Below, piece after piece: positions 993 through 29,641 of a stretch of 29,826 nt of DNA; the first letter of the stretch is position 1; the number at the start of each line of letters is the position of its first letter. The notes beneath the pieces were generated by a model that saw nothing but the letters and a program-made list of their open reading frames with translations, searched no databases and was not told where the DNA came from. Position numbers and translations under genes: made by a program. This DNA comes from a virus. The stretch spans positions 1-29,826 of the IMG/VR virus record IMGVR_UViG_3300031951_000868. One strand, given 5' to 3'.

Positions 993-1156
993 TGGACGCA
1001 CGCACCGCCCTTCGTCAAGTCATCGCCCGCGCCCTAGCGCAGCGTGATCTCCAGGCTCTCCAGGCCGCCCAGCCACACGATGGAAGCCACGAACTCGATC
1101 ACGATGGCCCGCAGCTCATCCTCAGTGGCCATGGCCAGCGTGGCCGGGTCGGCTAG
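991..1156 (+). CDS. Possible coupled ORF reading into the integrase 3' end
   Basis: An ATG at 991 overlaps the stop of the HTH gene by ATGA, the same coupling used by the two genes before it. The first 15 residues (MDARTALRQVIARAL) look like an ordinary helical protein. From about 1034 the frame runs antisense to the integrase coding sequence, and the product becomes uninformative. It may be a genuine 54-aa overlapping gene, the stump of a gene cut by recombination next to the integrase, or chance. I keep it only because of the coupling. Confidence 0.25.
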
Positions 1157-2990: not shown

Positions 2991-3010
2991 GCAGGTTGCC
3001 GGAAACCTAA
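2991..3010. promoter_or_regulatory. Head-to-head pair of GGMAASCTR motifs between divergent genes
   Basis: On the minus strand GGCAACCTGC (3000-2991) points to the ATG at 2972, 28 bp away. On the plus strand GGAAACCTAA (3001-3010) points to the ATG at 3025, 24 bp away. The two copies abut at CC|GG. The same arrangement recurs at 19821-19840. It is likely a divergent initiation element; whether it acts on transcription or translation is not shown. Confidence 0.5.
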
Positions 3011-5319: not shown

Positions 5320-5657
5320 CAGCGGCGACGGCGGTCGAAGGGGACAGCAGCGGCCACGGGGTTGAACAGGCGGGCCACGGCCTCGATCTGCCCCATGGTT
5401 GCCGGCTTGCCCACAGCATCCGCAATCGCAGAGGCAATGAGGCCTTCCACGATCACGGGCGGGACGTTGTTGCGCAGCACCATCGGCAGCTCCTGATCCA
5501 GCCGGCCGAACACCTGGGGCAAGACTGCCTGCAGAGCACGGTCTACGGCCAGTTCTGCCAGACGGGTGGCCAAGCGGCCGATCAGGGGGCGCAATCTCAC
5601 GGTGGAGCCTGCAGTTTCCCTAGCTTTCCCTGCCCAGGAACCGCCCATCAGGCCCAC
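5319..5657 (-). CDS. Lysis-cassette hypothetical protein, 112 aa
   Basis: The protein is rich in amphipathic helix (RLATRLAELAVDRALQAV; VPPVIVEGLIASAIADAVGK) and ends in a basic FDRRRR tail. There is no clear membrane segment and no known motif. It overlaps the upstream membrane protein by 38 bp and is coupled to the lysin by ATGA. Position suggests a holin partner or lysis regulator, but nothing in the sequence proves this. A second in-frame ATG at 5648 would shorten it by three residues. Confidence 0.6.
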   Translation of the reverse strand: MGLMGGSWAGKARETAGSTVRLRPLIGRLATRLAELAVDRALQAVLPQVFGRLDQELPMVLRNNVPPVIVEGLIASAIADAVGKPATMGQIEAVARLFNPVAAAVPFDRRRR

Positions 5658-5925
5658 GCCGTGCGCCCTGCTGTTGCCGCCGCTTGTGCCCTGACAGATA
5701 GGCCGCCACGGGCGACTGCGCCAGCAGCCCGCCGATCCCCAGCCCCGACGCCCTCAAGTCTGCCTGCATGTTGTCCCATGCCGGCTGGCACTGATCCGGC
5801 CCTGATGCCCGCATCTCGCACAACCCCACACGCACCGCACCGCTCACCGCCAGCGACACCGCAGCGCCAACGATCATGATGCCGATGGGGGTAAAGCCTC
5901 GGAACGTGGGGGAAACGCTGATCAT
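5620..5925 (-). CDS. Single-pass membrane protein, holin candidate, 101 aa
   Basis: Residues about 11-33 (FTPIGIMIVGAAVSLAVSG and onward) form one strong transmembrane segment. A soluble region with two Cys (C36, C46) and a Gly-rich stretch follows. The C-terminus is basic and ends RRGPDGRFLGRES, which resembles the GRF motif at the N-terminus of three other proteins in this window. It lies between another membrane protein and the lysin gene, so a holin or antiholin role is plausible. The 4-bp overlap with the upstream gene supports coupling. Confidence 0.65.
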   Translation of the reverse strand: MISVSPTFRGFTPIGIMIVGAAVSLAVSGAVRVGLCEMRASGPDQCQPAWDNMQADLRASGLGIGGLLAQSPVAAYLSGHKRRQQQGARRGPDGRFLGRES

Positions 5926-6257
5926 TGCTTTCGCCCCATCTCTTGCCGCGTCATCCGCACTTCCAGATCCTGAAGCTCGGCCTTAAACTCCCGCATCTCG
6001 CTCTGGAACGCTTCCTGATTGATCAGCACCCTGTCCAGCCGGATCGGCACCTGAACGGCCAGGTAGCCGATGCCGCCAACGCCGCAGATGATCAGCCATG
6101 ACACCACATGGCGGCGGACTTCATCCCAGAAGGGGTCAGGCGTCCCGTTCACTAGGACCTCCACTGCATGAGCCCAGTCGCTGGGCAGTCTTGGGAGTTC
6201 ATGGCCGGCGATGGTCACAGCAGGACTTAATAAAGGTTGCCGATTCTGAGAGGCCAT
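5922..6257 (-). CDS. Membrane protein with C-terminal coiled coil, holin/antiholin candidate, 111 aa
   Basis: I use the ATG at 6257, which has a GAGTGAGGG ribosome-binding-like sequence upstream, instead of the GTG at 6272 that lies inside it. One transmembrane helix spans about 51-70 (VVSWLIICGVGGIGYLAVQV). A likely coiled coil follows at about 78-108 (FKAELQDLEVRMTRQEM). Helix plus coiled coil next to a lysozyme is typical of holin-like or XhlA-like proteins, though the order here is reversed relative to XhlA. A GGCAACCTAC motif begins 30 bp upstream of the ATG. Confidence 0.65.
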   Translation of the reverse strand: MASQNRQPLLSPAVTIAGHELPRLPSDWAHAVEVLVNGTPDPFWDEVRRHVVSWLIICGVGGIGYLAVQVPIRLDRVLINQEAFQSEMREFKAELQDLEVRMTRQEMGRKQ

Positions 6258-6277
6258 AGGTATAGCCCTCACTCGCG

Positions 6278-6287
6278 GTAGGTTGCC
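6278..6287 (-). promoter_or_regulatory. GGMAASCTR motif copy
   Basis: The sequence GGCAACCTAC lies between the fibre gene and the lysis cassette, 30 bp before the ATG at 6257. The TAG stop of the fibre gene runs into it. The local sequence TAGGTTGCCTA is also a short inverted repeat. Confidence 0.45.
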
Positions 6288-7174
6288 TATGCCATGACAA
6301 GGAACCGCCGCCGCTTGATCTCACCTTCGGCAGTGCCGGCGATGGTGAGCGCAACGATGGAGTTGCCGGCAACGACCACAGTGCCGGATGCCGTGCCGGT
6401 GATGGACAGGATGATTGAGCTGTCACCGCTGACCGGGCCGCCTTCTGCCGTACCTGTTGACTCGCCGGCTATGGACAGGGCTACAGAGCTGGCACCACTG
6501 ACCGCAACCACGCCATCAGCGGCGCCGGTCAGATCAAGGGTGCTTGATGCTGCACCGGCAACCGCAACGCCGGCGGATGCCGATCCCGACAGGCTCAGGG
6601 CCTGGCTCGAAGCGCCAACGACGGCAATGCCACCGGCTGCAGTGCCGGACATGCTGAGCGTGCCGCTGCTGGCACCTGCGACCGCAACAGTGCCCGCTGC
6701 TGTGCCGGTGATCGACAGGGTGGCGCTGCTGGCCCCGCCAACGCTGACGGTGCCTGCTGCGCTGCCCGTGAGGGTCAGGGTCTGGCTGCTGGTGCCGCTG
6801 ACGCGAACTGTCCCGGCGGCACTGCCGCTGAGGCTGAGGGTGCTGGAGCTGGCTCCTGCAACGGCAACGCCACCCGCGGCACTGCCTGACAGGGCCAGGG
6901 TCTGACTGCTGGCGCCGCTGAGGCTGACCGTGCCCGCTGCAGTGTTGCTGCCAAGGGCCAGAGTGACCGAGCTGCTGCCCGTGATTGGGGCAGCGCCGCC
7001 GACTGTGCCCTCGGCACTGCCGGCGAGACTGAGCGTGCTGCTGCTGGCGCCGAGCCGGGCAACGGGGCCGAATGTCCCAGTGGCAACGATCTGGCACCAG
7101 GCCGCCGATTTGGGCGCAACGGCATAGCAGCTAGAGCTGCGGCTGCGACCCCATCGGAATACCCGGTAGGCCAC
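6287..7174 (-). CDS. Repeat-rich tail fibre-like protein, 295 aa
   Basis: After about 40 unique residues the protein is a string of roughly twelve copies of a 20-residue unit of the form GASSxTLSLSGSAAGTVxVx. Spacing is exactly 20 for the copies starting at residues 87 to 227. Ser, Thr, Gly and Ala alternate with hydrophobic residues, as expected for a beta-solenoid or trimeric fibre shaft. The short C-terminal KRRRFLVMA follows directly. The start is GTG with a GAGG-type ribosome-binding site overlapping the previous stop. It is the last virion-type gene before lysis, a usual place for fibres. The receptor is unknown; no knob or peptidase domain is visible. Confidence 0.7.
   Translation of the reverse strand: MAYRVFRWGRSRSSSCYAVAPKSAAWCQIVATGTFGPVARLGASSSTLSLAGSAEGTVGGAAPITGSSSVTLALGSNTAAGTVSLSGASSQTLALSGSAAGGVAVAGASSSTLSLSGSAAGTVRVSGTSSQTLTLTGSAAGTVSVGGASSATLSITGTAAGTVAVAGASSGTLSMSGTAAGGIAVVGASSQALSLSGSASAGVAVAGAASSTLDLTGAADGVVAVSGASSVALSIAGESTGTAEGGPVSGDSSIILSITGTASGTVVVAGNSIVALTIAGTAEGEIKRRRFLVMA
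6315..7051 (-). repeat. Tandem 60-bp coding repeats in the fibre gene
   Basis: About twelve diverged direct repeats of 60 bp encode the 20-residue units of the fibre protein. Indels of whole units at the ends (residues 42-86 and 247-290) suggest past expansion and contraction. Confidence 0.8.
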
Positions 7175-8005: not shown

Positions 8006-8395
8006 TCAGGCCGCCGGCATGGTGCGGGTCCAGCTGGTCACGGTCACGGTCTGACCTGACGCGATGCTGGTGTTGTCAAGCGTCAGATCACCACCGCCAC
8101 CCGTGGCCGTGATCGTGCCCTCTTCGATGTCCGAGCCATTGGTCAGCCGGTAGTGGCCAGCCGTGCCAGTGCCAGAGGCTGAAACCGTCCAGCTGCCGTT
8201 CAATGTCACCTGACCCGTGCCGCTGGTCAGCGGGGTTGAGGGCAGCGTGATCGTGGCCAGCGCACTCCCACCAGCAGCACCACCTACACCGGCCGGTGAA
8301 CCCGTGCGAATGACCAGCGACGAACCAGCCGGAAACGCCGCCACATAGCCGTCCCGCAACCTGTTTCGGGTCGTGCTGGAGTGCTGAATCGCCAT
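8006..8395 (-). CDS. Phage structural protein of the short beta-sandwich type, 129 aa
   Basis: It begins AIQHSSTTRNRLRDGYVAAF and ends with DLTLDNTSIASGQTVTVTSWT. This head and tail, with an SLVIRTGSPAG segment and GTAGHYRLTNGSD between them, is a common pattern of small prophage virion proteins that I recognise in style but cannot name precisely. The fold is probably all-beta. A GGAAACCTAG motif lies 30 bp upstream of the ATG. Confidence 0.65.
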   Translation of the reverse strand: MAIQHSSTTRNRLRDGYVAAFPAGSSLVIRTGSPAGVGGAAGGSALATITLPSTPLTSGTGQVTLNGSWTVSASGTGTAGHYRLTNGSDIEEGTITATGGGGDLTLDNTSIASGQTVTVTSWTRTMPAA

Positions 8396-8415: not shown

Positions 8416-8425
8416 CTAGGTTTCC
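8416..8425 (-). promoter_or_regulatory. GGMAASCTR motif copy (variant)
   Basis: The sequence GGAAACCTAG includes the TAG stop of the upstream gene and lies 30 bp before the ATG at 8395. Confidence 0.35.
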
Positions 8426-10459: not shown

Positions 10460-11991
10460 GGCGTCAGGTCAGAAAGGGAAAACCCGAGGGCAAGGAGTCG
10501 CTGCCGACAGAACCGCGCATCAGACCAGTCATAGGACGTGTAAAGGCGGTTTTGCCATTCGCTTTCCCGTGCATTGCCCTCGTCATCGGCGTACAAGAGT
10601 GCAGGAGGGCTCGTCTCCGGTCGCGCCGTGCGCGATTCTGACAGGCTATTGAGCGCACCATTGAAGTACAGATCGCCGCCATTGGTATAGAGGAAGTCAA
10701 TGGGCTGCTGCGGCGGCACAAGAGCCGACAATCCAGCAAACGCGCCAGAGTTCAACGGGAACACGCTTATCGACTTCTGCTTAACCCTGGCCGCCTGAGG
10801 GTCGTCCCCATCGGCTTCCCAGGTGCTGCCGTGAATCAGCGACGGATAGATAGAAGCCGAGCTGGCAAACTGCACAATCTCCAGGTTTGGGATCTCTGAG
10901 GGGTTGTTGTAAATCCCTGCAGTGCGGGGGGCATCGTAGGTGTGGTCAGTCAGCCAAGTATTATCCGGGTTGACTGCCGGCACGGTTGTCCACGTGATGC
11001 GGGGCACGGTCACTGATCCCGACACTGGGGCGCCGTTGTATTGCTGGACAAAATCGCCGGCATGGTTGAAGTCATAGTCCACGTCCACGATGGAAGGAAC
11101 GTGCGTCGGCAACAGGTCTAGAAGGGTGTCTTGAAACACGGCCGGCAACGCAATCTCACGCACCGTGGAGTTGCCAACGCGGAACGCCTTGGCCTGCACG
11201 ACGGTCTTGGCGCTTAGATCCCCGCTGAACTCGTAGACGACTCGCTGGTTGTCGGGATCGTCGAAATACTCGTAGACGGTTGCCACGCAGGGCTGATAGC
11301 CAAACGTGACCCGTGCGACGCTGACGTACAGCAATGCCTGCGGCCCGATAGGCAGCACGATTTTCACGTCTGCCGACATAAAGCTGCCTCGGTTGTTCCG
11401 CTGATACCGAAGCGGAACCTCGCCATCTGGCCATGATGGATCCGGTGTAATCGGGGTGCTGAACACCCATGACTGCGGCCTCAGGGTTCGCTCATGCCGG
11501 CTGAGCACCCAGTTCTCAGGCGAAGCCCAATACGGAGACTTGGGCAGTGGAGTTGAGGACGGATCAGGAATGACGTTTGAGGCATCAAATACGTCAACCC
11601 ACTCAATCCAGGCAGTGCCATCAACTGAGCCGATCTTGTTGTGGCTTTCAACCGCAGCAATACCTACGGGTGGTGCGCCTACGGTGTTGAGGGCAGTGGA
11701 TCCAAGGCCTCGGAACTTGGAAATCTGAAACGCGCTCCACAGCCATGCGTTGCCGACGCCTACGGCTTGGGCTTCTCTGAACGCTGCAATCTCCACTTTG
11801 GTCTCCGTCTCGGGCACCGCACCGGGCCATGGCTTGGCCTGCTCCACCGGCTTCCGCAGCCGCTTGGCCTCAGCCTCCACTCGCTGCCGGCGCTCCTTGT
11901 TCATCTGCGCCCGGCGGTTGGCCTCAGCCCAGCTTTTAGCCAGCTTGCGCAGGCTGCTGGTGATGACCTGGATGTAGATTTGCTCGGCCAT
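10456..11991 (-). CDS. Large tail/virion protein, 511 aa
   Basis: The N-terminal 55 residues form a charged helix (LAKSWAEANRRAQMNKERRQ). The rest alternates beta segments and aromatic-rich loops (WIEWVDVFDASNVIPDPSS; VLPIGPQALLYVSVARVT; GDLYFNGALNSLSESRTA), typical of tail tip or surface proteins. I see no protease, lysozyme or fold signature that I can name. Start and stop both overlap neighbours by ATGA, placing it firmly in the late operon between a 134-aa fibre-like protein and the frameshift pair. Confidence 0.65.
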   Translation of the reverse strand: MAEQIYIQVITSSLRKLAKSWAEANRRAQMNKERRQRVEAEAKRLRKPVEQAKPWPGAVPETETKVEIAAFREAQAVGVGNAWLWSAFQISKFRGLGSTALNTVGAPPVGIAAVESHNKIGSVDGTAWIEWVDVFDASNVIPDPSSTPLPKSPYWASPENWVLSRHERTLRPQSWVFSTPITPDPSWPDGEVPLRYQRNNRGSFMSADVKIVLPIGPQALLYVSVARVTFGYQPCVATVYEYFDDPDNQRVVYEFSGDLSAKTVVQAKAFRVGNSTVREIALPAVFQDTLLDLLPTHVPSIVDVDYDFNHAGDFVQQYNGAPVSGSVTVPRITWTTVPAVNPDNTWLTDHTYDAPRTAGIYNNPSEIPNLEIVQFASSASIYPSLIHGSTWEADGDDPQAARVKQKSISVFPLNSGAFAGLSALVPPQQPIDFLYTNGGDLYFNGALNSLSESRTARPETSPPALLYADDEGNARESEWQNRLYTSYDWSDARFCRQRLLALGFSLSDLTP

Positions 11992-12395
11992 CAGTCATCC
12001 GTGATGAGCTGGATGCGGTAGGTCTGGGTTTGGCCGGCGGCGATGGTCACCAACGTGGACTCAACGAGGATGCTGTGGATGTAAGTTTCGCCGTTGATGT
12101 AGACCACCACCGTGTCATAGGAGTAAGTGCCGCTGGTGCAGGTAAAGGCGAAGTCCAGCGCCGGGATTTCGTAGCGCAGGTCGGTGCCGTCCCAAGCGCC
12201 AGTGCCAATGACCTCAGAACCCCTGACATAGCCGGTGCCCGTGCTCTCCACGCTTTGCCAGTTGGCCACCGTGCTCTCAGCCGTGTAGCCGGTCACCCCC
12301 ACGGTGCAGAGCATCACCTTGAGCGTCTTGGTCTCATAGGCGAGGCCCGCAACCCGCTTCAGCTCCTTCTGGGAGATCGTGGTGGTGAGTGCCAT
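11991..12395 (-). CDS. Small tail protein, 134 aa
   Basis: The protein starts MALTTTISQKELKRVAGLAY and has beta-rich content with clear strand patterns (LKVMLCTVGVTGYT; YSYDTVVVYINGETYIHSILV; ITIAAGQT-type repeats near the end). It looks like a small virion protein of the tail fibre or collar type. A GGCAACCTAG motif, including the stop of the upstream gene, begins 27 bp before the ATG. The gene overlaps the next one by ATGA. The family was not identified. Confidence 0.6.
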   Translation of the reverse strand: MALTTTISQKELKRVAGLAYETKTLKVMLCTVGVTGYTAESTVANWQSVESTGTGYVRGSEVIGTGAWDGTDLRYEIPALDFAFTCTSGTYSYDTVVVYINGETYIHSILVESTLVTIAAGQTQTYRIQLITDD

Positions 12396-12412: not shown

Positions 12413-12422
12413 CTAGGTTGCC
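12413..12422 (-). promoter_or_regulatory. GGMAASCTR motif copy, perfect local palindrome
   Basis: The sequence GGCAACCTAG lies 27 bp before the ATG at 12395. It is embedded in CTAGG-TTG-CCTAG, a perfect 5-bp inverted repeat. The TAG stop of the upstream gene is part of it. Confidence 0.45.
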
Positions 12423-13024: not shown

Positions 13025-15078
13025 CAGTCAGGCTCCGGTGTGAGGGGGAGGTCGCCGGCAGTCATGCCGGGTGGCAGGGGCACCCAGGAATCAGTGGTGC
13101 CCTCGTCAGCACCCACGGCACCCCAGTACAAAGCGTCCGTGGAGGCAATGACGCCATCGCCGGTCATCGCCCAGGAGCAGCCGTTGAGCCGGTACTGGCC
13201 GGTGATGCCGGCGGCCTGGACGTAGATGGGATCAAAGGGCGCGTCAGGCAGGCGCATGGGGTCTAGCTGGAGCGCCAGCGCAACACGGTTGCCCAGCAAG
13301 AGGCGGTTCTGGATGCGGCCAAAGGCACGCGCCTTCTCTTCCGCGTCGCTCGGCGTTGACGTGTAGCCGCCCAGCTCGGTCCAGCTGATCACGTCATCCG
13401 GCGCATAGGGCAGAGTGAATTCCTGCGTGGCTTCCGTTTCAACGCTTCCTACGGCCCAGGTGGTTTCGGTGACGGATTCAGCGGGGTCATCTTTGGCGTT
13501 GGCCGAGTTGTTGCGGTCGGACTGGCTGGGGCGTTTCTGCAGTCCATACTCACGCTCAGTGCGAATCAGCGTCTCCACTGCAACAGGGCGCATCTGGCTG
13601 GCAAGGATCAGCAGGCCTTCAACGCTGCTGAACAGGGACAGCAGTGAGGAGTAGTCAATGCTGTCACGGGCAACCAATGCCAGGTTCTGCTGTCCCGTCA
13701 AGGTGTTGCCTTCGATTTGATAACGCTCTGTTCTGGTTCTGGTTATGCCGGAGGACGGGTCTTTATCGTAGACTACGATCGTGCGCGATTCAAGGATGGT
13801 GGCTTCTGGCGACGTGTACGTGACTTCGCCCGTGTCGCTGCGGAACCCTTCAATGTTCATGCTGGCCGCGAGCTGCAGCGGCGATATGTATGTTTCGGTT
13901 ACGGTCTGCACCACGTCGCTGTAGTCGTCAGGCTTTGTATTGGCGATACACTCAGCAGCGGTTCCGGTGTCCGCGTCTGATTGATCCGATAGGTAAGCCG
14001 CTAGCGCCTGTTCGCCTTCGGCCCGCAAGTAGCCATACGGATCAAAAGTATCAAATGGGCCCGATGGGGCCGGCACCTTGTATTGAGGCTTTTGAACTTG
14101 AATGCGCTCAACCGGCACTTGAGTCTTAACGCCACCGGCCCACCGGGGGCTAACGTCTGATGAAATGCTCAGCTCGTAAGTGACGGAACACACAAGCCGG
14201 TCCCAGGTATCATACGTTGAATAAATGGCTCGGTAAGGCGTGAAGGTGCCGGCAACGGTCTGATAGACGTTTTCAGAGTCAAGATAGGTGAGCGTGGTTT
14301 CCTGCGTCGCGCCATAGGAGACTTCTGCTTCCCATCGTCGCCGCAGGATCTCTTCAGTTGAGGTTGCGTCAGGGTCCGGCGCCTTGAGCTTGCGGGTGGT
14401 GTAGCTGACCCGTGCCGAGTCACCAGCCAGACCCCCAACGCCAACCGGGCCCAGATCAATGATGTCGGCATCGGTGATGATCGGGCCGGTCATGGCCGGA
14501 TCGTCAAAGCTGAAGATCTCCAGTGTGTTCCCGCTGCGCACCATGCCAAAGTGGTTCTCTGACACCAGCAGATCGCTCATCACCTGAACGTAGCCGGCAC
14601 TCAGGTCAAACTCCTCGACGCTGAACTTGTTGGTGAGGGGGTTGGATGACAGGGTGAGGCCGAGGGCATCTGCGCATTGCTGCAGCACGTAGCTGGCGCT
14701 GATCGGCAGCGTCGCGTAGTTGTAGACGTAGCAGGGGACGGCGGCGTTCTCTTCCTTGCTATTGGGGTTCTCGGTGGGCGGCTTACGGTTGGCGAAGTAG
14801 GTCAGCGCACAGCCCAATTCCACCTTGGTGGTCTGCCGGTAGGGATCCACCATGGCCGACAGCACCCGCAGCGACCGGGGGATGGTGTCACCGCCGCCGC
14901 CAGCCTTGGTGTAGGAGAAGTCAACGGTGGTGCCAATGGCAGGGAGGCTGCCGCCCTTCAGCTCAACGCTGCCCCGTGTCCTGATGAGCCCGCTGCCCTG
15001 CAGGTAGTCATCGGCAATGTTGGCCTGGATGACCGGGCCGAGGCCGCACGTGACAACTGCGCGAATGTCGATAGTCAT
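13024..15078 (-). CDS. Tail hub / baseplate-like protein, 684 aa
   Basis: The protein begins DIRAVVTCGLGPVIQANIAD and shows the mixed beta and short-helix pattern of siphophage tail hub (Tal/gp27-like) proteins: RSLRVLSAMVDPYRQTTKVEL, SYVLQQCADALGLTLSSNPL, and VMSDLLVSENHFGMVRSGNT, the last resembling the LysM-like or gp27-type insert. It follows the repeat-bearing candidate distal tail protein and precedes a glycan-binding protein, which fits a hub role. No C-terminal peptidase or lysozyme domain is seen. The ATGA overlaps on both sides support strict co-expression. Confidence 0.6.
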   Translation of the reverse strand: MTIDIRAVVTCGLGPVIQANIADDYLQGSGLIRTRGSVELKGGSLPAIGTTVDFSYTKAGGGGDTIPRSLRVLSAMVDPYRQTTKVELGCALTYFANRKPPTENPNSKEENAAVPCYVYNYATLPISASYVLQQCADALGLTLSSNPLTNKFSVEEFDLSAGYVQVMSDLLVSENHFGMVRSGNTLEIFSFDDPAMTGPIITDADIIDLGPVGVGGLAGDSARVSYTTRKLKAPDPDATSTEEILRRRWEAEVSYGATQETTLTYLDSENVYQTVAGTFTPYRAIYSTYDTWDRLVCSVTYELSISSDVSPRWAGGVKTQVPVERIQVQKPQYKVPAPSGPFDTFDPYGYLRAEGEQALAAYLSDQSDADTGTAAECIANTKPDDYSDVVQTVTETYISPLQLAASMNIEGFRSDTGEVTYTSPEATILESRTIVVYDKDPSSGITRTRTERYQIEGNTLTGQQNLALVARDSIDYSSLLSLFSSVEGLLILASQMRPVAVETLIRTEREYGLQKRPSQSDRNNSANAKDDPAESVTETTWAVGSVETEATQEFTLPYAPDDVISWTELGGYTSTPSDAEEKARAFGRIQNRLLLGNRVALALQLDPMRLPDAPFDPIYVQAAGITGQYRLNGCSWAMTGDGVIASTDALYWGAVGADEGTTDSWVPLPPGMTAGDLPLTPEPD

Positions 15079-17483
15079 CAGACGAGTTTGGCGAGTTCAG
15101 CCGAGACGGTGTAACGGGTGGTCTTGACCCCGGCAACCAGCACGCTCTCAGCGCCTGTGACGGTGGGCGGCCGCGTGGGGAACCATGCCCCTGCACTGGC
15201 ACCGCCGCTGATGGCCCCGTCGTACCAGCTCATCAGGTCGGCCACCGTGCCTCCGGTCACGTAGCCCTCAATAGCCTTGGACTCCAGCGCCTGCAGAGGG
15301 CCCTGGACAAGGGAAAAGCCGCCAGCTGTCCACGTCACTGAGGGCCCAACGGCTCGGCCTGTTGCCGGCTTTGTGAGTTTGATGCTCACGCCCCCCAGAG
15401 ACTCCGTGCCAAGGTCCGGCAGATCCTCGCTGAGGTACTTGTCAATCAGTGCCTGGAAGCTCCGCAGCGTCTTGAGGGAGTCCATGCCGCCGCCGGCAAA
15501 GATTGCCTGCCGTGCGGTGAGGTCCGCAATCTCAATCGCCACCTCAGCAGTCTTGAGGTCTTCGACGTAGGTGCCGTAAACCGATGCCTTGGCCTCGGCG
15601 TTCTGCACCTCCTGCTGCAGGTCAAGGCCAGCCAGCGTGGCAGCAGAGCCGGCCCGTGCGGTGATCTCGGCCGTCTTGTTCAGCACCTCCCTGGCGACGC
15701 TGATGTCAGCCAGGTCAGCGGCGCGGGTGGCAAGGGCATCCAGCTCAGCCTGCTGGGCAACGATGCTGCGGTCGGCATCCAGCTCGGCTAGATCCGCCGC
15801 GTTCGTCGTGAAAGCGGCCAAGTCGGCCGTCTTGCTGACCACCTCGCGGTCGGAATCAATGACGGCAAGAGCGGCGGCATTGACGGCATACGCTGTTGCC
15901 TCTGCGCCCTTGGACGCCAGCTCACGGCTTGAATCCAGCGTTGCCAGTGCCGCAGCGTTGGCGGCATACGCCGTGTTTTCGGCTGTCTTGGCGATCACCT
16001 CCCGGTCGCTGTCCATCTCGGCCAGGGCTGCAGCGTTCGGGGTGTAGGCCGCTAGTTCGGCCGTCTTGGCAGCGATCTCCCGGTCTGCATCAAGCTCGGC
16101 CAGCGTGGCAGCGTTGGGGGTGTAGGCAGCCAGTTCAGCGGTCTTGGCAGCAATCTCCCGGTCTGAGTCGATCTCAGCCAATGCCGTTGCATTGGGCGTG
16201 TAGGCCGCCAGTTCGGCAGTCTTGGCCGCTAGTTCACGATCAATGTCAAGCTCGGCCAACGTGGCGGCGTTGGCCTGGAACACGGGCAGCTCAGCGGTCT
16301 TGGCCGCTATTTCCCGATCACCGTCTAAGGCTGCCAAGGCATCGGCATTGACTGCATAGACGGCCAGTTCTGCCGTCTTGGATGCAATCTCCCGGTCCCC
16401 GTCAATCGCTGCTAGCGCCGCAGCGTTGGGGGTGTAGGCCGCGAGTTCAGCGGTCTTGGATGCCAGCTCACGGTCAGCGTCCAAGCTTGCCAAGGCTGCG
16501 GCATTGGCCTCATACACCGGCAACTCTGCTGTCTTGGCTGCCAGCTCGCGGCTGCCGTCCAAGGCTGCCAGGGCATCCGCGTTTACCTCATAGACGGCCA
16601 GCTCTGCGGTCTTGGCCGCCAACTCTCGGTCACCATCGATACCGGCCAACGTGGCGGCATTGGGCGTGTAGGCCGCCAACTCGGCGGTCTTGGCCGCAAC
16701 CTCTCGCGTTGCATCCAATGTCGCCAGCGCCGCAGCATTGGGCGTGTAGGCCGCCACCTCGGCAGTCTTGGCTGCCAGCTCACGGTCGGCATCCAGCTCT
16801 GCCAGTGCCGCAGCGTTAGGGGTATAGGCCGCCAATTCAGCGGTCTTTGCCACCAGCTCGCGGTCAGCATCCAAGCCCGCCAGCGTGGCCGCTGCAGCGG
16901 CATACGGTCCCGCCTCTGCCGTCTTGGTGAGTACCTCCCGGTCAATCTGCTGCTGGGCGAAGTCATCGGCCAACCCGCCACCCAAGGCGGCCAGCTCACA
17001 GTCGGTTTCGGCCTTTTGCTTTGCCAGGTTGGCCGCGATCACGGCGCAGTCCACGTCAGTTGAATCGGCCACGGCCTCAGCCTGTGTCCGCTCCTTTTCC
17101 AGCTCCCGTTGCCGCAGCAGCACGGCCAGCGCCTGCGCTGCATCCACAAGGATGGCCGTTGCCTGGACGTAAGGGCCAGCCTGCTCTCCTGACGGTGCCT
17201 CGGTGAACCAGCACGCCAATCCCGTGACTGCGATGCCGTTGGCACTTCCTACGGTCAGGCTGATCGTGGTGCCGACACTCTCGCTCAGCAGCGTGTCCTG
17301 ATCGTTCAGCCGTGTGGCCCGCCACGTGTCGTATTCAGTGACCAGAGCCTTCCACTGGGCTGCCGACAGCAACCCGCTGATCCTGAAGGTGCGTGCGGTC
17401 AGGCCTGTCCGCGCCTCGCCCTCATAGCTATAGGGCTGAGCGGTGAGGTAGTCACAGGTGAAGGTGCCGATTGTGATAGCCAT
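15078..17483 (-). CDS. Candidate distal tail protein with 18-copy helical repeat insertion, 801 aa
   Basis: Residues 1-120 (AITIGTFTCDYLTAQPYSY; SAAQWKALVTEYDTWRATRL; YVQATAILVDAAQAL) and about 665-801 (GGVSIKLTKPATGRAVGPSV; SVLVAGVKTTRYTVSAELA) look like ordinary beta-rich tail protein segments. Between them, residues 178-645 are 18 tandem 26-residue units of the form LDADRELAAKTAELAAYTPNAAALAx. Each is likely one helix closed by a TPN-type turn. The immediate position after the tape measure is where siphophages encode the distal tail protein, hence the call. The long helical insertion is not a usual feature of that family. It may form a rod or solenoid projecting from the tail tip. Confidence 0.55.
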   Translation of the reverse strand: MAITIGTFTCDYLTAQPYSYEGEARTGLTARTFRISGLLSAAQWKALVTEYDTWRATRLNDQDTLLSESVGTTISLTVGSANGIAVTGLACWFTEAPSGEQAGPYVQATAILVDAAQALAVLLRQRELEKERTQAEAVADSTDVDCAVIAANLAKQKAETDCELAALGGGLADDFAQQQIDREVLTKTAEAGPYAAAAATLAGLDADRELVAKTAELAAYTPNAAALAELDADRELAAKTAEVAAYTPNAAALATLDATREVAAKTAELAAYTPNAATLAGIDGDRELAAKTAELAVYEVNADALAALDGSRELAAKTAELPVYEANAAALASLDADRELASKTAELAAYTPNAAALAAIDGDREIASKTAELAVYAVNADALAALDGDREIAAKTAELPVFQANAATLAELDIDRELAAKTAELAAYTPNATALAEIDSDREIAAKTAELAAYTPNAATLAELDADREIAAKTAELAAYTPNAAALAEMDSDREVIAKTAENTAYAANAAALATLDSSRELASKGAEATAYAVNAAALAVIDSDREVVSKTADLAAFTTNAADLAELDADRSIVAQQAELDALATRAADLADISVAREVLNKTAEITARAGSAATLAGLDLQQEVQNAEAKASVYGTYVEDLKTAEVAIEIADLTARQAIFAGGGMDSLKTLRSFQALIDKYLSEDLPDLGTESLGGVSIKLTKPATGRAVGPSVTWTAGGFSLVQGPLQALESKAIEGYVTGGTVADLMSWYDGAISGGASAGAWFPTRPPTVTGAESVLVAGVKTTRYTVSAELAKLV
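15549..16952 (-). repeat. Eighteen tandem 78-bp coding repeats
   Basis: The repeat array is exactly 18 x 78 = 1404 bp with no frame break. The inner copies (for example those spanning about 16016-16874) are most alike. The first copy and the last three are degenerate. Conserved positions include the DRE at 4-6, KTAE at 10-13 and NAA at 20-22 of each unit. Confidence 0.9.
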
Positions 17484-19820: not shown

Positions 19821-19840
19821 TTAGCTTGCCGGAAACCTAG
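19821..19840. promoter_or_regulatory. Head-to-head pair of GGMAASCTR motifs between divergent genes
   Basis: On the minus strand GGCAAGCTAA (19830-19821) points to the tape measure GTG at 19802, 28 bp away. On the plus strand GGAAACCTAG (19831-19840) points to the ATG at 19844, 13 bp away. The geometry matches 2991-3010, including the shared core TTGCCGGAAACCTA. Confidence 0.55.
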
Positions 19841-20674: not shown

Positions 20675-20700
20675 AAAAAGCCCCCGCATGGCACGGGGGC
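20675..20700 (-). terminator. Rho-independent terminator downstream of the major tail gene
   Basis: A perfect 7-bp stem, GCCCCCG (20680-20686) with CGGGGGC (20694-20700) and a 7-nt loop, is followed on the minus strand by TTTTTCTTG. The T-tract is on the minus side only, so it terminates transcription coming from the major tail gene, 32 bp beyond its stop. Confidence 0.85.
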
Positions 20701-20719
20701 TCGCTACCCACTGGTCGGC

Positions 20720-20729
20720 TTAGCTTGCC
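20720..20729 (-). promoter_or_regulatory. Orphan GGMAASCTR motif copy before the terminator
   Basis: The sequence GGCAAGCTAA is identical to the copies at 19821, 21509 and 23982, but no start codon of a credible gene follows; the terminator begins 20 bp downstream. It may be a relic from before the plus-strand genes were inserted, or it may start a very short RNA. Confidence 0.35.
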
Positions 20730-20731
20730 GA

Positions 20732-21490
20732 TCAGCTCACCGTGGCCACGGTGAACGTCGGCCGCACGTCTGCGCCAGCGTCGCCCACAGTGCCGGCACC
20801 CACGGTCAGGATGTCGCCCACCTTGTAGTTGGTGCCGCCTGCCACGATTGTCGGCGCTGCGGTCACGGTGCCGCCGCCAGCCACCACGATGTCCGCCGTG
20901 GCATCCCGGCCACTGCCCACACCTTGGCCAGGGGTCACACCAATCAGCGACACGCCGCTATAGGTGGCGGGAGTCATGCCAGAGCCGTTGGTGGTAACAG
21001 TCAAGGTGGCGATGGGGTTGCCCTGCGGGTACCAAAGCAGGCTGCCGTACCCTCTGAACGTGAAGCTGACCGTAGCCACGTCGCCAGCCTGGATTGACTC
21101 CTGGAAGCCTTCCACAAAGGCAATGCCGCTGTGGATCTCAGCATTATCACCACTGCCGTCCTTCACAGGCGACACCCGATAGACCCGCAGGGCAGTACCG
21201 GCTGCGCCGCCGAGCCATGCCGACTTGAGCAGCTTGTACCCCGCATCCCCCAATGCGATGTTCATGCTGGCCGGAACACTCCAGCCGATATTGGTCATCA
21301 GAGGATTTTTCCACCCGTATTCGCTGCTGTAGTCCAGCGGTGCATCGGTAGAGTCGGTACTGCCATCAATACTGGCATTGGTGAGGCTCAGAACCTGCGT
21401 CAAGCCCGAGGTAGACGTGGGCGCGGATGATGCGGTGGTGCCGAGCCCTACATACAGCTCGTAGTCGAGGGCTGTGAAATACCCGGACAT
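20732..21490 (-). CDS. Major tail (tube) protein, 252 aa
   Basis: The start SGYFTALDYELYVGLGTTA and segments such as NIGWSVPASMNIALGDAGYK and GDVATVSFTFRGYGSLLWYP are characteristic of siphophage tail tube proteins. The last 70 residues are Gly/Thr/Val-rich (GGGTVTAAPTIVAGGTNYKV) and may be an Ig-like or surface-exposed extension. A GGCAAGCTAA motif lies 28 bp upstream of the ATG, and a strong terminator follows, so it can be expressed as its own unit, as expected for an abundant protein. Confidence 0.75.
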   Translation of the reverse strand: MSGYFTALDYELYVGLGTTASSAPTSTSGLTQVLSLTNASIDGSTDSTDAPLDYSSEYGWKNPLMTNIGWSVPASMNIALGDAGYKLLKSAWLGGAAGTALRVYRVSPVKDGSGDNAEIHSGIAFVEGFQESIQAGDVATVSFTFRGYGSLLWYPQGNPIATLTVTTNGSGMTPATYSGVSLIGVTPGQGVGSGRDATADIVVAGGGTVTAAPTIVAGGTNYKVGDILTVGAGTVGDAGADVRPTFTVATVS

Positions 21491-21508: not shown

Positions 21509-21518
21509 TTAGCTTGCC
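21509..21518 (-). promoter_or_regulatory. GGMAASCTR motif copy upstream of the major tail gene
   Basis: The sequence GGCAAGCTAA includes the TAA stop of the sigma gene and lies exactly 28 bp before the major tail ATG at 21490. Confidence 0.55.
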
Positions 21519-22120
21519 GCCGCCAGTTCCCGCTCCTCCTCAGCCTCCAGCCATTCCATGGGCGACGGCCGCTGATCGCAGTGCAGCTCCCAATCCTGCA
21601 CGTCATGCCCGATGCCAGAGGTGGCAAGCAGGGATTCCTGTAGCTCCTGCAGGCTGCAGCCGAGGGCCTCGGTGACCTGCTGCGGCGTCATGCCTGCGGC
21701 TGCCAGCTTGCGGGCCTTACTGCCCCGTTCCCGCACAACGGGGGGTGCTGCGATCTGGAACCCGTGGTCCCGCAGGTAGTGCATGATCTCGCCCTCCACG
21801 AAGCGGCCTAGGAGGGTGGAGAGCTTGTAGGGCTCACCGTTGGCAGGGTTGAGCTTGGTGGGGTCGTAGCTGCGGAAGGTGCGCAGAAACGCCACGTCCA
21901 CCAGGGAGCTGATCACATCCCGCTCCAAGACTGGAAACTTCCTGGCCATCTTGGCGGTGAACTTCCAGGCAAGCCCGATGTTGGCCGCGTAGAGCTTCCC
22001 AAAGGCGCGGCGTTCCTCCCTTGTGAAGGGCCGTTCCAGGTGGTCACGTTCCCGCCACTGTTCTTCCGGCAGGCCTAGCGCCGTGAGCAGTGTGAGTTGG
22101 TTGCGGTCTTTGCGGGCCAT
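21509..22120 (-). CDS. Phage-encoded sigma factor, regions 2-3 only, 203 aa
   Basis: Residues 41-124 read as sigma70 region 2: LYAANIGLAWKFTAKMARKF, then VISSLVDVAFLRTFRSYDP, then KLSTLLGRFVEGEIMHYLRD. The GEIMHYLRDHGFQIAAP stretch is a near match to region 2.3-2.4 of SigF/SigB-type factors. Residues about 129-167 (SKARKLAAAGMTPQQVTEAL; CSLQELQESL) fit region 3. The remaining 36 residues are acidic and show no region 4 helix-turn-helix, so contact with a -35 box is not expected. T4 gp55 is the known precedent for such a short late sigma. It lies between the head-tail adaptor and major tail genes. Its role in phage late transcription is inferred. Confidence 0.8.
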   Translation of the reverse strand: MARKDRNQLTLLTALGLPEEQWRERDHLERPFTREERRAFGKLYAANIGLAWKFTAKMARKFPVLERDVISSLVDVAFLRTFRSYDPTKLNPANGEPYKLSTLLGRFVEGEIMHYLRDHGFQIAAPPVVRERGSKARKLAAAGMTPQQVTEALGCSLQELQESLLATSGIGHDVQDWELHCDQRPSPMEWLEAEEERELAAAS

Positions 22121-22126
22121 GGCCCA

Positions 22127-22684
22127 TCAGCCACGGAACACCCTGATGCTACCGGAACTGCCTTTGGGAACCGAAGTGGTCAATACCCCGAGCGTTCCCA
22201 CCAGCGAGGGCACGACGGTGAGGCAGTTGAGCACCGTGGGCGCACCGCCTTGGCGGAAGGTCACGGACACCACGTCCACGCTGGCTGACTGCAGGCTGCT
22301 GTTGGGGATGCCAGGGATCAGCTCACCTAGTGCCGTGTTGCTGCCGCTGAGCAGGGTGGGGGTTGCCAGCAGCGCATTGGCCAGGTCAAAGGTGGCCTGT
22401 TCGATCTGTTCGGGGATGGTGGTGCTGCTGAGCGCCACGCCATCCAGGGTGATGCCGCTGCGGGGCCAGCCGAGGGCCTGGGTGGAGGATGCGCGATCCC
22501 CAATCCACTCCAGCTCGTCTAGGTAGCGGGTGGCAGAGATGACGGCACGGCCCTTGTCGTCGGTGGTGGCACTGCTCCAGGCAAGCGTGCCCAGCTGCAG
22601 ATTGGCGATGGTGTCACCGCCGGCAACCGTGAGGTAGGAGTTGGCAGAGGCAGAGCCTGCCGTGGCGGTGACGGTGACGGTCAT
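22127..22684 (-). CDS. Head-tail adaptor, DnaT-like/gp6-type, 185 aa
   Basis: The pattern ASANSYLTVAGGDTIANL, then VISATRYLDELEWIGDRAS, QALGWPRSGITLDGV, and IPEQIEQATFDLANALL is that of the small helical connector proteins often labelled DnaT-like in phages. They attach to the portal and prepare the head for the tail. The C-terminal third is more variable. The stop is 6 bp before the sigma start codon, and the start overlaps the preceding gene by ATGA. Confidence 0.75.
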   Translation of the reverse strand: MTVTVTATAGSASANSYLTVAGGDTIANLQLGTLAWSSATTDDKGRAVISATRYLDELEWIGDRASSTQALGWPRSGITLDGVALSSTTIPEQIEQATFDLANALLATPTLLSGSNTALGELIPGIPNSSLQSASVDVVSVTFRQGGAPTVLNCLTVVPSLVGTLGVLTTSVPKGSSGSIRVFRG

Positions 22685-23244
22685 GGCTTGCGGATGGTGG
22701 AACGCTGCCGGGGCAGTCTCTTGATGCGTGCCGCGGGCTTGCTGGAGCGTGCCTGCTCACGGATGAGCGCCGATGCCCCGGAATAACGGCCGGTGCGCCC
22801 TGTGCCCGTGGTTCCGATCAGCTTGCGCGGGCCATCCTTGGACGTGATGGCAGCGCTGGGGTTGCGCTTAGGGATCGTGCCCCGAGGGGCTGACGTGAGG
22901 AACGTGTTGTCCCGCAGGACCCGGCGGCTGGTGGTGCGAGGGTTGACGGTGCGCAGCCCTGCAGCCTTGGCCTGTTGCTTCAGGGTGGGGCTGACCCTGG
23001 CGACCTTGGGCTTAATGGCCCGGCCCATCATCGCGGCAGTCTCGCGGGAGAACTGATCCACGCTGCGGCCAAAGCGCGTGCCGCTGATGGTGCCTCTGGG
23101 CTTGGCAGTGCCGCTGACAGCGTTGCGCCGCAGCCGGGGAGCGGTGACGCTGGTGCCAACCTTGGCACGCAGGGTGCGCCTGCCAGCAGCGCCACCACCG
23201 CTAGAGAAGCGCCCGCGTGAGTCCCTGGCGTAGCGGCGTGCCAT
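22681..23244 (-). CDS. Arg-rich basic phage protein with GRF leader, 187 aa
   Basis: I prefer the ATG at 23244, which overlaps the previous stop, over the GTG one codon upstream. The leader ARRYARDSRGRFSSGGG is shared with two other basic proteins in this window. APRGTIPKRNPS (119-130) and a similar KPRGTISGTR (49-57) repeat a motif also found in them. Overall it is extremely basic, with one helical patch (QFSRETAAMMGRAIKPK). It lies among head genes and may be an internal or DNA-contacting virion protein. No family is known to me. Confidence 0.6.
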   Translation of the reverse strand: MARRYARDSRGRFSSGGGAAGRRTLRAKVGTSVTAPRLRRNAVSGTAKPRGTISGTRFGRSVDQFSRETAAMMGRAIKPKVARVSPTLKQQAKAAGLRTVNPRTTSRRVLRDNTFLTSAPRGTIPKRNPSAAITSKDGPRKLIGTTGTGRTGRYSGASALIREQARSSKPAARIKRLPRQRSTIRKP

Positions 23245-23963
23245 CACTTCTTGCCCTTGCGCTTCGGCTTGGCAGCACCCTTGCGACCACCGCCCATGGT
23301 CTTGTAGTAGTCCTTGGCAGCCTGAGCCGTAATCAAGGAGTTGGCGGCCTTCTTGTCGTAGGGGTTGGCACGACGGGCCTTGTCGGCACGTTTCAGGTTG
23401 GCACTAGCGCGGCCTGCGGCAGTCTTGGGCCCAGCTTTCGCCTTGGGGGCAGGGGCTGGGGTCGCCTTACTGGCATACCCAGGGCCATTCATCTGCCGCG
23501 AACCGTACAGCCGGGCAACACGTCCCTTGGCAATGGTCCCCTCAGGGGCGGAGGTTCCAGGGCGACGGGAGCCAAGGTTGATTCCACGCTTCTTGGCTTT
23601 GGGCGCAGGCGCCGATGCTGCAGATTGCTGCGACTTGGCACGCACACGCGCCACCTGACGCGGGGAAACCCCGATCGTGCCCATGGATGCAGAGGTCCGG
23701 GGGCCAGAGCCCTTGCCGGTGTACATGATCCGCTTCTGATTGCGCAGACCACCGGCACGCTCTTGCGCACCCTTGCCACCGGCAAAGCCCTTGGCCTTGA
23801 CCCGGCCACCAATGGCCGTGGTGCCCTTGGCCTTCAGATCAGCAGCGCGGCTGGAGTTGGCCTTGCGGGTGCCTGCAGCCTTGCTGCCGCCTCCACCGCC
23901 GCCTGTGGATGCAAACCTGCCGTTCTTGTCCCTGTTGTACTTCCTACCCCCACCCTTGGCCAT
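23244..23963 (-). CDS. Gly/Lys/Arg-rich basic phage protein with GRF leader, 239 aa
   Basis: It opens AKGGGRKYNRDKNGRFASTGG followed by a Gly run, then low-complexity Lys/Arg/Ala sequence ending GAAKPKRKGKK. The motifs SASMGTIGVS (91-100) and SAPEGTIAKG (138-147) match motifs in the two sister proteins. A Lys/Ala segment near 167-182 (TPAPAPKAKAGPK) resembles histone-like tails. A short ordered C-terminal helix is possible (ANSLITAQAAKDYYKTMGG). A GGCAAGCTAA motif lies 28 bp upstream. The role is unknown; DNA condensation or head interior is a guess. Confidence 0.6.
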   Translation of the reverse strand: MAKGGGRKYNRDKNGRFASTGGGGGGSKAAGTRKANSSRAADLKAKGTTAIGGRVKAKGFAGGKGAQERAGGLRNQKRIMYTGKGSGPRTSASMGTIGVSPRQVARVRAKSQQSAASAPAPKAKKRGINLGSRRPGTSAPEGTIAKGRVARLYGSRQMNGPGYASKATPAPAPKAKAGPKTAAGRASANLKRADKARRANPYDKKAANSLITAQAAKDYYKTMGGGRKGAAKPKRKGKK

Positions 23964-23981: not shown

Positions 23982-23991
23982 TTAGCTTGCC
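23982..23991 (-). promoter_or_regulatory. GGMAASCTR motif copy
   Basis: The sequence GGCAAGCTAA includes the TAA stop of the minor head gene and lies exactly 28 bp before the ATG at 23963. Confidence 0.5.
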
Positions 23992-25387: not shown

Positions 25388-26704
25388 TTAGGCGGTTAGG
25401 GCTTGGAGGGTGGCGTTGCTCAGCCTTGTCGGCCAATACGCAATCCTGGAAATGGTGCCAGCCTTGACCCTGTTCAATGCACCGTGATCTGAGCCGATGT
25501 CAGCCCGCGTCAGGGCCGAAGGCATCGTGGCGGTGGCATCAGTTGCTGGAGCGGCCCCATTGAGAGAGGTTGCGAGATCGTTTGCGGCATAAGCAGCAGC
25601 GATTTGCCCCGTGACATTGGCGCTTAGACCCGTTCCTGCGGTTGCAACTCCGTCATAGGCGCCACCCGAAGCCGTGGCGAGTGACACACCGCCCGCGCTT
25701 TGAACATTCCAAGCAATTTGATTGTTGTAACTGTTATCGCTGACCCTAAACAGAAACTGGTTGCCGCCGCTAGCTGGCTGGGCCACTGCGGCTTGGACAA
25801 ATGCACTGCCCTGCCCCTGGTTATACCACCCCGAGAACGCAGTGCCGGTGATCGTGGCGATGTCAGCCGACCGCGTGGCGCTGGTGCCGGTGGTGGGGAT
25901 GTAACTGGTGGGGAACGCGCCGGCTTCTAGCTGGGCGCCTGTGACGTGATAACCACCCACTCCATCGGCTACATCCGACTTTATTGTCCAGTGATCTCCA
26001 CGATTGCCTGGGGCAGTTGTCGTTGACGTGAATGTCCATGAGATGCGAAACCAGTCATCACGAAAGGGCTGCACTGTCCAGGCCGTGACTGTCCCACTGG
26101 GTGCAGGAGCCCCCGAAGACGGCGTGATGCTAAAGACTTCTCCGGTGACATTGCTACGCAGCCTGAACACACTGGCGCCACTCATTCGCACAAAGATGCT
26201 TTGGGTGTAGACAGTAGTATTGGCAAGCGTAGTTCCGCTTCCAAAATTAAAGCCATCTATGCTGTTGCCAGTATTTGCACCAACATTCAGCGCAAGTAAA
26301 GAGGCAGTAGTGCCGCCAAGTGGGGTTGATATGCTGACAGACGTAAGTGTTGCATTAGCTATTCCGTAGTTATTCGCGCCAAGGATCGCATCGCTGTACG
26401 TTTTCAGATTTGCCCTCTGCTCCTCCACCAGCAGCCCCAGGCACGCGCCCGTGGTGGGGTCATGCTGGAACCGGGGCACGTCGTTGGCAACGGTTTCGAT
26501 CAAGCCTGTGGGGCCCACCACGGTGGCATTACTGGCCCGGGTGAAGGTGACCAGCGATTGCCCGGTCACCGCATCGCGCAGGCTCCGGTTTGCCGCAAAG
26601 CGCAGGTCAAGGCTCGGCACCCTCTGAGCACGCTGCCACAGCGGATCACGCACCCACCCCGGCGTCACAATCCCCCGATAGCCAGGCTCCACCATGCTCA
26701 CCAT
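25388..26704 (-). CDS. LamG/ConA-like virion surface protein, 438 aa
   Basis: Residues about 40-110 (TFTRASNATVVGPTGLIET, then VPRFQHDPTTGACLGLLVEE, then QRANLKTYSD) and the C-terminus (NRVKAGTISRIAYWPTRLS, NATLQALTA) are the hallmark frame of phage surface proteins built on a concanavalin/LamG jelly roll that bind carbohydrates. The middle contains a second beta domain with an HWTIKSDVADGVGGYHVTGA segment. The start may be the ATG at 26704 or the one at 26695. The stretch about 26200-26380 is visibly more AT-rich than its surroundings, which suggests mosaic exchange. Located among capsid genes, it may decorate the head rather than the tail. Confidence 0.75.
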   Translation of the reverse strand: MVSMVEPGYRGIVTPGWVRDPLWQRAQRVPSLDLRFAANRSLRDAVTGQSLVTFTRASNATVVGPTGLIETVANDVPRFQHDPTTGACLGLLVEEQRANLKTYSDAILGANNYGIANATLTSVSISTPLGGTTASLLALNVGANTGNSIDGFNFGSGTTLANTTVYTQSIFVRMSGASVFRLRSNVTGEVFSITPSSGAPAPSGTVTAWTVQPFRDDWFRISWTFTSTTTAPGNRGDHWTIKSDVADGVGGYHVTGAQLEAGAFPTSYIPTTGTSATRSADIATITGTAFSGWYNQGQGSAFVQAAVAQPASGGNQFLFRVSDNSYNNQIAWNVQSAGGVSLATASGGAYDGVATAGTGLSANVTGQIAAAYAANDLATSLNGAAPATDATATMPSALTRADIGSDHGALNRVKAGTISRIAYWPTRLSNATLQALTA

Positions 26705-27201
26705 GACCGATAGCCCGAGTCCAGAGCGTTCACGCGCAGCTCATACACCTCGCTGTTGGCACCGGGGGTGAAGGTGCCGAGGGTCTGTAGCTGCGCCCAG
26801 AGGGTATTGGTGTTGTTGGCAAACCGAACGAGGATCCCCGCGTAGTCAACCTGGCTGACCAGCGTGCTGCCGAAGTCCTGGGGCGCCGGTAGGTCAAGGA
26901 ACCCGATGTAGGGATCCCGATCTGCGGCAACCAGATCAAAGACAGCGTTATCGGCAATCGCCGTGGGCGATGACGTGTAGAAGTGCAGCCGGAAGTTGCT
27001 CATCCCGCTCGGGATGCTGGCAACGTGGATCTGCAGCCGCACCGACTGGATCTGAATGAACCCGCCCGGCTTACCAAGGTTTGTGAACGAGTGGATGGCA
27101 CTGGTCGTGGTGCCCACCACGTCATTGGCCGTGTACTGGGTGGTGTTTGCCGGCCGCGTGAACTGACGCACCGACCGATAGGATCCGAAATCAGTGCCCA
27201 T
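26698..27201 (-). CDS. Capsid-associated structural protein, 167 aa
   Basis: The pattern GTDFGSYRSVRQFTRPANTTQ, ANDVVGTTTSAIHSFTNLG, PGGFIQIQSVRLQIHVASIP, YIGFLDLPAPQDFGSTLVSQ, and the final SEVYELRVNALDS is that of a small beta-sandwich virion protein found next to capsid genes. The exact function is unknown. It starts inside the end of the 57-aa gene (11 bp overlap) and overlaps the LamG-like gene start by 7 bp. Confidence 0.65.
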   Translation of the reverse strand: MGTDFGSYRSVRQFTRPANTTQYTANDVVGTTTSAIHSFTNLGKPGGFIQIQSVRLQIHVASIPSGMSNFRLHFYTSSPTAIADNAVFDLVAADRDPYIGFLDLPAPQDFGSTLVSQVDYAGILVRFANNTNTLWAQLQTLGTFTPGANSEVYELRVNALDSGYRSW

Positions 27202-27364
27202 CTTGTTCCTTGGCGATCAGCCGTCTGCGGCGTGGTTGTCTCTTAGGTTGCCGATCCTCCACCGGATCAGCTTGCGGCTCCACAGAGAAAGAGGCCGCAG
27301 CCTCTGCCTGGGTGGCAGAGATTGCAGCCTCGATCTTGTGCCGCCGGAAAGCGGTCAGACCCAT
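27191..27364 (-). CDS. Small capsid-region protein, 57 aa
   Basis: The frame MGLTAFRRHKIEAAISATQA continues with a Glu/Ala helix, a short acidic section, and a basic KRQPRRRRLIAK stretch before the stop. Its start lies 4 bp after the decoration-like gene, and its end overlaps the next start by 11 bp, which is the packing of the rest of the operon. Small charged proteins of this form are common after phage capsid genes, though I cannot assign a family. A copy of the GGCAACCTAA motif (27243-27252) lies inside the coding sequence. Confidence 0.65.
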   Translation of the reverse strand: MGLTAFRRHKIEAAISATQAEAAASFSVEPQADPVEDRQPKRQPRRRRLIAKEQDGH

Positions 27365-28919: not shown

Positions 28920-29609
28920 TCAGCCACGCGCATTGATAGCGTCGGCTTCACTCTTCAACTGAGCGGCCAACAGCGGATTGATCCGCACTAGGCGGTCTTG
29001 CTCGGTGAGGTTGTAGGACGCACGCACCCACGGGTTGTTGGTGCCGGTGGGGAGGGAGGTGGCGACGCTGCCGCCCACGGGCGCCCCGGTGCCACGGGCC
29101 TGCGGTTCCTTCAGGTAGTGGCGGGGGAGGTTGGCGCGTGCCCAGTCGGCAATGGGGATCCGCTCCAGGCCGTTCACCACCACCGGGCCTGATGCGCCGT
29201 GCTCGATCTGCTCAGGCTTGAGCTTGCCGGTGGCAAACACGTCATCAGGGTCGTGGACGATCTTCGACAGCTCAGAGGATGCAGGGCTGATCAGCTCCAG
29301 GTCACGGATGCGGGCAGTGAGCCGGTCAATCTCTTTCCTGAGCGCAGCGGTGTCGGTGTCGTACTGCTGCTGCAGCTGCTGGCGAAGCTCCGCGAAGTTG
29401 CCGGCCTCTTCCAGCTTGGCCTGCTCGGTCTTGCGGCGAAACTCGATCAGCTCCTGCACGTCCACGCCATCGGGGACCTGGGAGGCCTTGGCCTTGGCTT
29501 TCTTGGCTTCGTCGAGCAGCTCGCGGTTCTTGGCGCGAAGGCGTTCGAGTTCTTCGGCAGCGGTGTCGGTGCTGGGGGTTTGCTCCACAGGAGCGAGATT
29601 GTCGGACAT
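28920..29609 (-). CDS. Capsid scaffold protein, 229 aa
   Basis: The ATG at 29609 (SDNLAPVEQ) is preferred over the GTG two codons upstream. Residues about 15-100 are strongly charged helix and coiled coil (AAEELERLRAKNRELLDEAK; NFAELRQQLQQQYDTD). An acidic linker and a more globular C-terminus (TGTNNPWVRASYNLTEQDRL; INPLLAAQLKSEADAINA) end the protein. This form, placed directly before the major capsid, is that of an internal scaffold that is removed during maturation. Confidence 0.8.
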   Translation of the reverse strand: MSDNLAPVEQTPSTDTAAEELERLRAKNRELLDEAKKAKAKASQVPDGVDVQELIEFRRKTEQAKLEEAGNFAELRQQLQQQYDTDTAALRKEIDRLTARIRDLELISPASSELSKIVHDPDDVFATGKLKPEQIEHGASGPVVVNGLERIPIADWARANLPRHYLKEPQARGTGAPVGGSVATSLPTGTNNPWVRASYNLTEQDRLVRINPLLAAQLKSEADAINARG

Positions 29610-29631
29610 GCCCACAGGGCTGGTGTGCCCC

Positions 29632-29641
29632 GTAGGTTGCC
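29632..29641 (-). promoter_or_regulatory. GGMAASCTR motif copy upstream of the scaffold gene
   Basis: The sequence GGCAACCTAC begins 32 bp before the ATG at 29609 (26 bp before the GTG at 29615). It includes the first base of the portal stop context TAGGCAACCTA and is a perfect GTAGG-TTG-CCTAC inverted repeat. Confidence 0.45.

Follow-up and report, generated by a model that had tools for sequence, protein, structure and literature searches.

The DNA analysed here (the window, a linear virus record of 29,826 bases) is the structural part of a siphovirus genome, encoding endolysin, tail genes, tape measure, major tail protein, head-tail adaptor, major capsid and scaffold together with a serine integrase (Table 1). 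It comes from a freshwater phage, probably a cyanobacterial one, and since the best named relatives of the capsid are Synechococcus and Prochlorococcus siphoviruses (36-39% identity), protein similarity points to a picocyanobacterium as the likely host. The gene on which this analysis centres sits between the PHROG 477 head-tail adaptor Ad1 and the major tail protein, i.e. inside the structural operon, where a preliminary description made from the sequence had placed it. For the product of the preceding gene (22127-22684) Pfam gives the name DnaT-like ssDNA-binding protein (DnaT_2), which may mislead, since the gene context favours the PHROG assignment, head-tail adaptor Ad1.

The 203-residue open reading frame at 21509-22120 (minus strand) encodes a genuine sigma-70-type factor that has regions 2 and 3 but lacks region 4. 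The preliminary description, which took region 2 to be plain and SigF/SigB-like, region 3 likely and region 4 absent, is borne out by HMM searches and by a predicted structure that is sigma-like. Two PHROG sigma families match the protein (E 1.7e-10 and 2.6e-10), as does the NCBIfam SigF model (E 6e-4); Pfam Sigma70_r2 misses the query itself and matches 26 of 31 homologues, lying above cut-off in relatives G004 and G009, and Sigma70_r4 matches none of the 31. The family profile matches S. aureus sigmaB and Bacillus-type sigmaF in the PDB over regions 2-3, extending to profile position ~153, which supports region 3, and ending ahead of region 4. All 31 homologues, drawn from many lineages, share one conserved end, R-x-T-P-W-E-V-L-E-A-E-E, so that neither a frameshift nor a truncated contig accounts for the missing region; by the order of regions this stretch would be the region 3.2 linker. 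An AlphaFold2 model built with the 31 natural homologues has a mean pLDDT of 81, above 90 across most of region 2, and its domain 2 fits SigE with a Z of 10.5 (1.8 Å over 78 residues). Model residues 31-169 align to E. coli sigma70 367-503, at a large rmsd because the domain 3 pose, unsettled in the model (pTM 0.53), differs. The dN/dS of 0.07-0.24 against relatives indicates purifying selection. Two further matches were discarded, a weak and misleading HTH_23 + Decapeptide match given by Pfam on the query alone, and an uninformative PDB match to 8vd6 (CAP repeat) that covers only the sigma3 helix-turn-helix stretch.

Table 1. Genes and late boxes of the window, with the gene assigned to each box
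Feature	Position	Strand	Remarks
Sigma factor, domains 2 + 3, without domain 4, 203 aa	21509..22120	-	PHROG 36098/351, Pfam, fold, purifying selection
Head-tail adaptor Ad1	22127..22684	-	gene preceding sigma; PHROG 477, E 1.1e-32
Major tail protein	20732..21490	-	first gene past sigma; PHROG 1407
Serine integrase	1034-2299		
Late box GGCAAGCTA	21510..21518	-	overlaps sigma stop; precedes major tail protein (ATG 21490); predicted +1 21505
Late box GGCAAGCTA	23983..23991	-	heads unit 23244-23963, 22681-23247, Ad1, sigma; nearest box upstream of sigma
Late box GGCAAGCTA	19822..19830	-	upstream of tape measure gene, start 19802
Late box GGAAACCTA	19831..19839	+	back to back with 19822..19830; predicted +1 is A of ATG 19844, leaderless
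Late box GGCAACCTA	27244..27252	-	upstream of gene 26698-27201
Late box GGCAACCTA	29633..29641	-	upstream of head scaffold gene 28920-29615
Late box GGCAACCTA	12414..12422	-	upstream of gene 11991-12395
Late box GGAAACCTA	8417..8425	-	upstream of structural gene 8006-8395
Late box GGCAACCTA	6279..6287	-	upstream of gene 5922-6272; likewise in G010
Late box GGAAAGCTA	5621..5629	-	probably for gene ending at 5319; weakest assignment of the list
Late box GGAAACCTA	3001..3009	+	upstream of basic protein 3025-3774; kept in G008, G010
Late box GGCAAGCTA	20721..20729	-	past tail-protein stop, then intrinsic terminator hairpin; no gene downstream

A single 10-bp box at late gene starts had also been claimed for this genome, and it exists in the form GGMAASCTA(R). 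Repeated 11-mers led to CGGCAAGCTAA and from there to GGMAASCTA, of which the window holds 12 exact copies against 0.49 +- 0.76 in shuffles. The gene at 5922-6272, which lies behind one of them, probably has its true start at a later ATG. The box at 20721..20729 runs directly into its terminator (window 20677-20729, z -2.0), and could therefore yield only an RNA of ~45 nt; relative G008 has no exact box at the equivalent spot. At 19822-19839 and 2992-3009 boxes on opposite strands stand back to back with CCGG in common, as compact divergent promoters, and the divergent arrangement at the tape-measure locus recurs in G003, G004, G005, G006, G007, G008 and G010.

The box has the anatomy of a promoter element. 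A pile-up of 107 boxes gives the consensus GGMAASCTAGGSCA, and because the columns upstream of it, where a -35 signal was sought, sit at background, there is no -35 element. Counting 13 bases from the first G, 109 boxes have A in 84 cases, G in 16, C in 9 and never T (A62 G14 C9 T0 with leaderless cases left out), whereas control SCTA sites outside boxes have ~20% A and 19% T at the equivalent base and no purine bias. Boxes stand 4 to ~30 nt ahead of start codons and point strictly towards genes; 82 of the 109 have a plausible start no more than 60 bases away, compared with 28% for random places. The start codon begins exactly at base 13 in 24 of the 109, apparently giving leaderless mRNAs, and a second peak lies 15 bases further. 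The G-led first half of the box could be read like extended -10 elements. If base 13 is the +1, as we predict, the box spans -13 to -5, where the T4 late box and the bacterial -10 also lie (PMC2988020).

The same element recurs in relatives, where de novo k-mer discovery in three groups places it among the top words. Nine large relatives, found via the sigma or the capsid gene, carry 8-14 copies of GGMAASCTA each against 0-2 of the backwards pattern; G009 has no copies. On both strands of the large relatives, boxes occur throughout the head, tail and lysis genes; they are nearly absent from the blocks of SSB, replication initiator (RepO), helicase and RusA genes (~12-19 kb), the exception being one box in the replication block of G008, ahead of an unknown gene adjoining RusA. 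These blocks were recognised by gene content and the box-free intervals read off afterwards, so no p-value is attached. At the sigma locus itself, a box lies no more than 60 nt from the sigma stop codon in 76 of 99 cases, often overlapping the stop, and a box directly precedes Ad1-sigma in G005, G007, G009 and L040. The last of these (RFRL01000240.1), the one contig returned by an Ad1 search of genome contigs, is binned to a Planctomycetia MAG, possibly by mis-binning; it encodes the adaptor, sigma and tail genes of the window's phage group and carries boxes.

Gene and motif occur together, as would be expected had the preliminary description rightly linked them. Among relatives drawn by capsid and adaptor profiles irrespective of sigma, the loci with sigma (counted if at least 8 kb long, overlapping loci from one contig counted apart) hold 265 boxes in 756 kb against 51 for the reversed control, whereas 45 capsid-homologue loci without sigma hold 8 boxes in 529 kb against 31 for the reversed control. 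Likewise, S-H1, KBS-S-2A and MED4-184, which are without this sigma, have 1-3 boxes per genome. The capsid tree unites the sigma-minus phages in one clade (support 100/99), whose near neighbours, among them the rows G004, L196, L197 and L132, have both sigma and boxes; box presence thus tracks sigma and not distance from the window. As the sigma-minus phages form a single clade, this presence and absence amounts to roughly one event, and these phages have a lower GC. Two rows labelled sigma-minus on the tree, L180 and L182, are contigs stopping ahead of the adaptor gene and are uninformative. In some sigma-plus lineages, L165-L173 and L176, the canonical boxes number just zero to three per locus. 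The G011/L068 provirus, with a weak sigma match, has no boxes and was left aside. G011 (L096-L097) comes from an isolate genome; at its contig end this provirus has a short sigma-like gene, apparently also without domain 4.

The spelling of the box varies with sigma lineage. The spelling beside sigma predicts that elsewhere in the genome, with 26 matches against 9.2 by lineage shuffling (permutation p = 0.0004 over 23 lineages, which are not fully independent). In G009 the variant GGGAAGCTA occupies four late sites, two of them the homologous ones next to Ad1 and the tail protein; GGCAAACTA, in the kin of L184, numbers 21 copies across 84 kb from one sigma group, compared with two across 365 kb without sigma.

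We consider it highly probable that the protein is a phage late sigma which works on host core polymerase much as T4 gp55 does, reading a -10-only late promoter, GGMAASCTA. The first sigma molecules would be made from host-type promoters or by read-through, and the protein would then replace the host's own sigma on its core RNA polymerase. Reading of the single element, at roughly -13 to -5 relative to a starting purine, would fall to domain 2 and the first part of domain 3, with no -35 element needed because domain 4 is missing, and the head, tail and lysis genes would thereby be turned on, several of them as leaderless mRNAs. Since sigma's own transcription unit stands behind a box, the positive feedback of late expression suggested earlier is plausible.

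Four other readings have to be set against this one. It is improbable that the protein is a sigma reading something else while the box serves as the site of another late-regulon phage protein, an activator or repressor: the partly palindromic form of some copies (TAGGCAACCTA) and the back-to-back pairs would suit such a site, but the strict gene-ward orientation, the purine at fixed spacing and the start codons exactly at that base would not, nor would the lack of a second conserved element upstream of the boxes or a spelling that follows sigma lineage. Split sigmas are known, SPO1 gp33/gp34 and Bacillus SigO/RsoA being examples, and the uniform lack of domain 4 in the family, along with other sigma-like or r4-like genes in some relatives, might suggest that a second phage protein brings domain 4 and reads a -35. 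We think this a little less probable again, as there is no conserved -35 column in the pile-up and no r4 protein was found in G001, G002, G008 or G010; a gp33-like, sequence-blind helper may nonetheless exist. That the box is an RNA signal for processing or translation is very unlikely despite its place 4 to ~30 nt ahead of start codons, for it is not Shine-Dalgarno-like, keeps two separate distances to start codons (13 and ~28) and tracks a sigma gene. Least likely of all is a decayed or moonlighting sigma without its own promoter (e.g. a competitor of host sigma), since a short, divergent protein lacking domain 4 would fit it but purifying selection does not, nor do the conserved position of the gene, its conserved C-terminus and the co-variation of sigma and box.

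The late sigma proposed here has its closest functional parallel in T4 gp55, the textbook model for a late sigma without domain 4, which is tied to a clamp and a co-activator. The precedent drawn by the preliminary description stands as regards anatomy. Alike are a sigma without domain 4 on host core (predicted for our phage), a single element in the -10 position, the lack of a -35 and the restriction to late genes (PMC2988020, PMC7892883). In contrast, gp55 combines a sigma2 homology domain with a helix-loop-helix, whereas the window sigma is SigF/SigB-like and retains sigma3; T4 uses an 8-bp TATA box, while the window box is G-led; and the T4 system needs gp33 and the clamp gp45 for full activity, no counterparts of which are known for the window phage. 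Gp55 is absent among the sequence and fold matches listed for the window sigma, and a distant kinship is possible.

The nearest named homologues, at 28-30% identity, are S-CBS2 gp077 and the 'SigF' of S-CRES1-3. Together with P-SS2 ORF003 these are, like the window sigma, of group 3 type and beside packaging genes, a situation already on record for P-SS2 (PMC2784084) and S-CBS2. They differ in adjoining TerL, whereas the window sigma lies between Ad1 and the tail tube. S-CBS2 and S-CRES3 have no excess of GGMAASCTA (2-4 per 72 kb), and an equivalent box was sought in S-CBS2/S-CRES with none established, the top k-mers being collagen-like coding repeats (GGAATTC) and a few TATATATA tracts. The accessible part of the P-SS2 report proposes a particular regulon for its sigma and reports no box there (PMC2784084). 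In the literature searched, which included few subscription papers, no paper was found to report GGMAASCTA or to tie a promoter box to the sigma of a cyanosiphovirus, and the matches listed for a search with the box letters were unrelated.

Cyanobacterial SigF and Bacillus SigB-SigF resemble the window sigma in sequence over regions 2-3 but have the region 4 that it lacks. Synechocystis SigF reads TAGGC (-32) and GGTAA (-12) (PMC2758279), a pairing that our pile-up, with its upstream columns at background, does not show. KBS-S-2A, a phage with homologous head genes, also bears a sigma (CPKG_00011), which differs in being RpoD-like with regions 2 and 4, lying elsewhere in the genome, and having no box excess in that phage. 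Some relatives, G004 (L075, 208-1490) and G009 (L091, 3063-3731), carry an additional RpoD-like sigma gene that, as in KBS-S-2A, has both region 2 and region 4 and possibly serves an earlier expression phase.

We put at about even the chances of a broader reading, that a widespread phage family with homologous head genes has independently evolved a self-sufficient late system, comprising a sigma2-sigma3 factor without domain 4 or sliding clamp, one G-led 9-bp element, many leaderless late mRNAs, and co-evolution of sigma and box. Were small siphoviruses to provide a second case, SigF-like and with a compact, predictable promoter, this would suggest that the solution arose more than once. The box would allow late promoters and transcription starts to be predicted in many uncultured phages, and the naturally co-varying sigma-promoter pairs would offer a set for learning -10 specificity.

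The window also contains two repeat arrays. One, of ~14 copies of a 78-bp tandem repeat (15600-16960), lies inside an 801-aa protein (15078-17483) for which the PHROG search gave no match. The other, a degenerate 60-bp array (6320-7070), lies inside a 295-aa protein (6287-7174) that is perhaps a fibre or receptor-binding protein.
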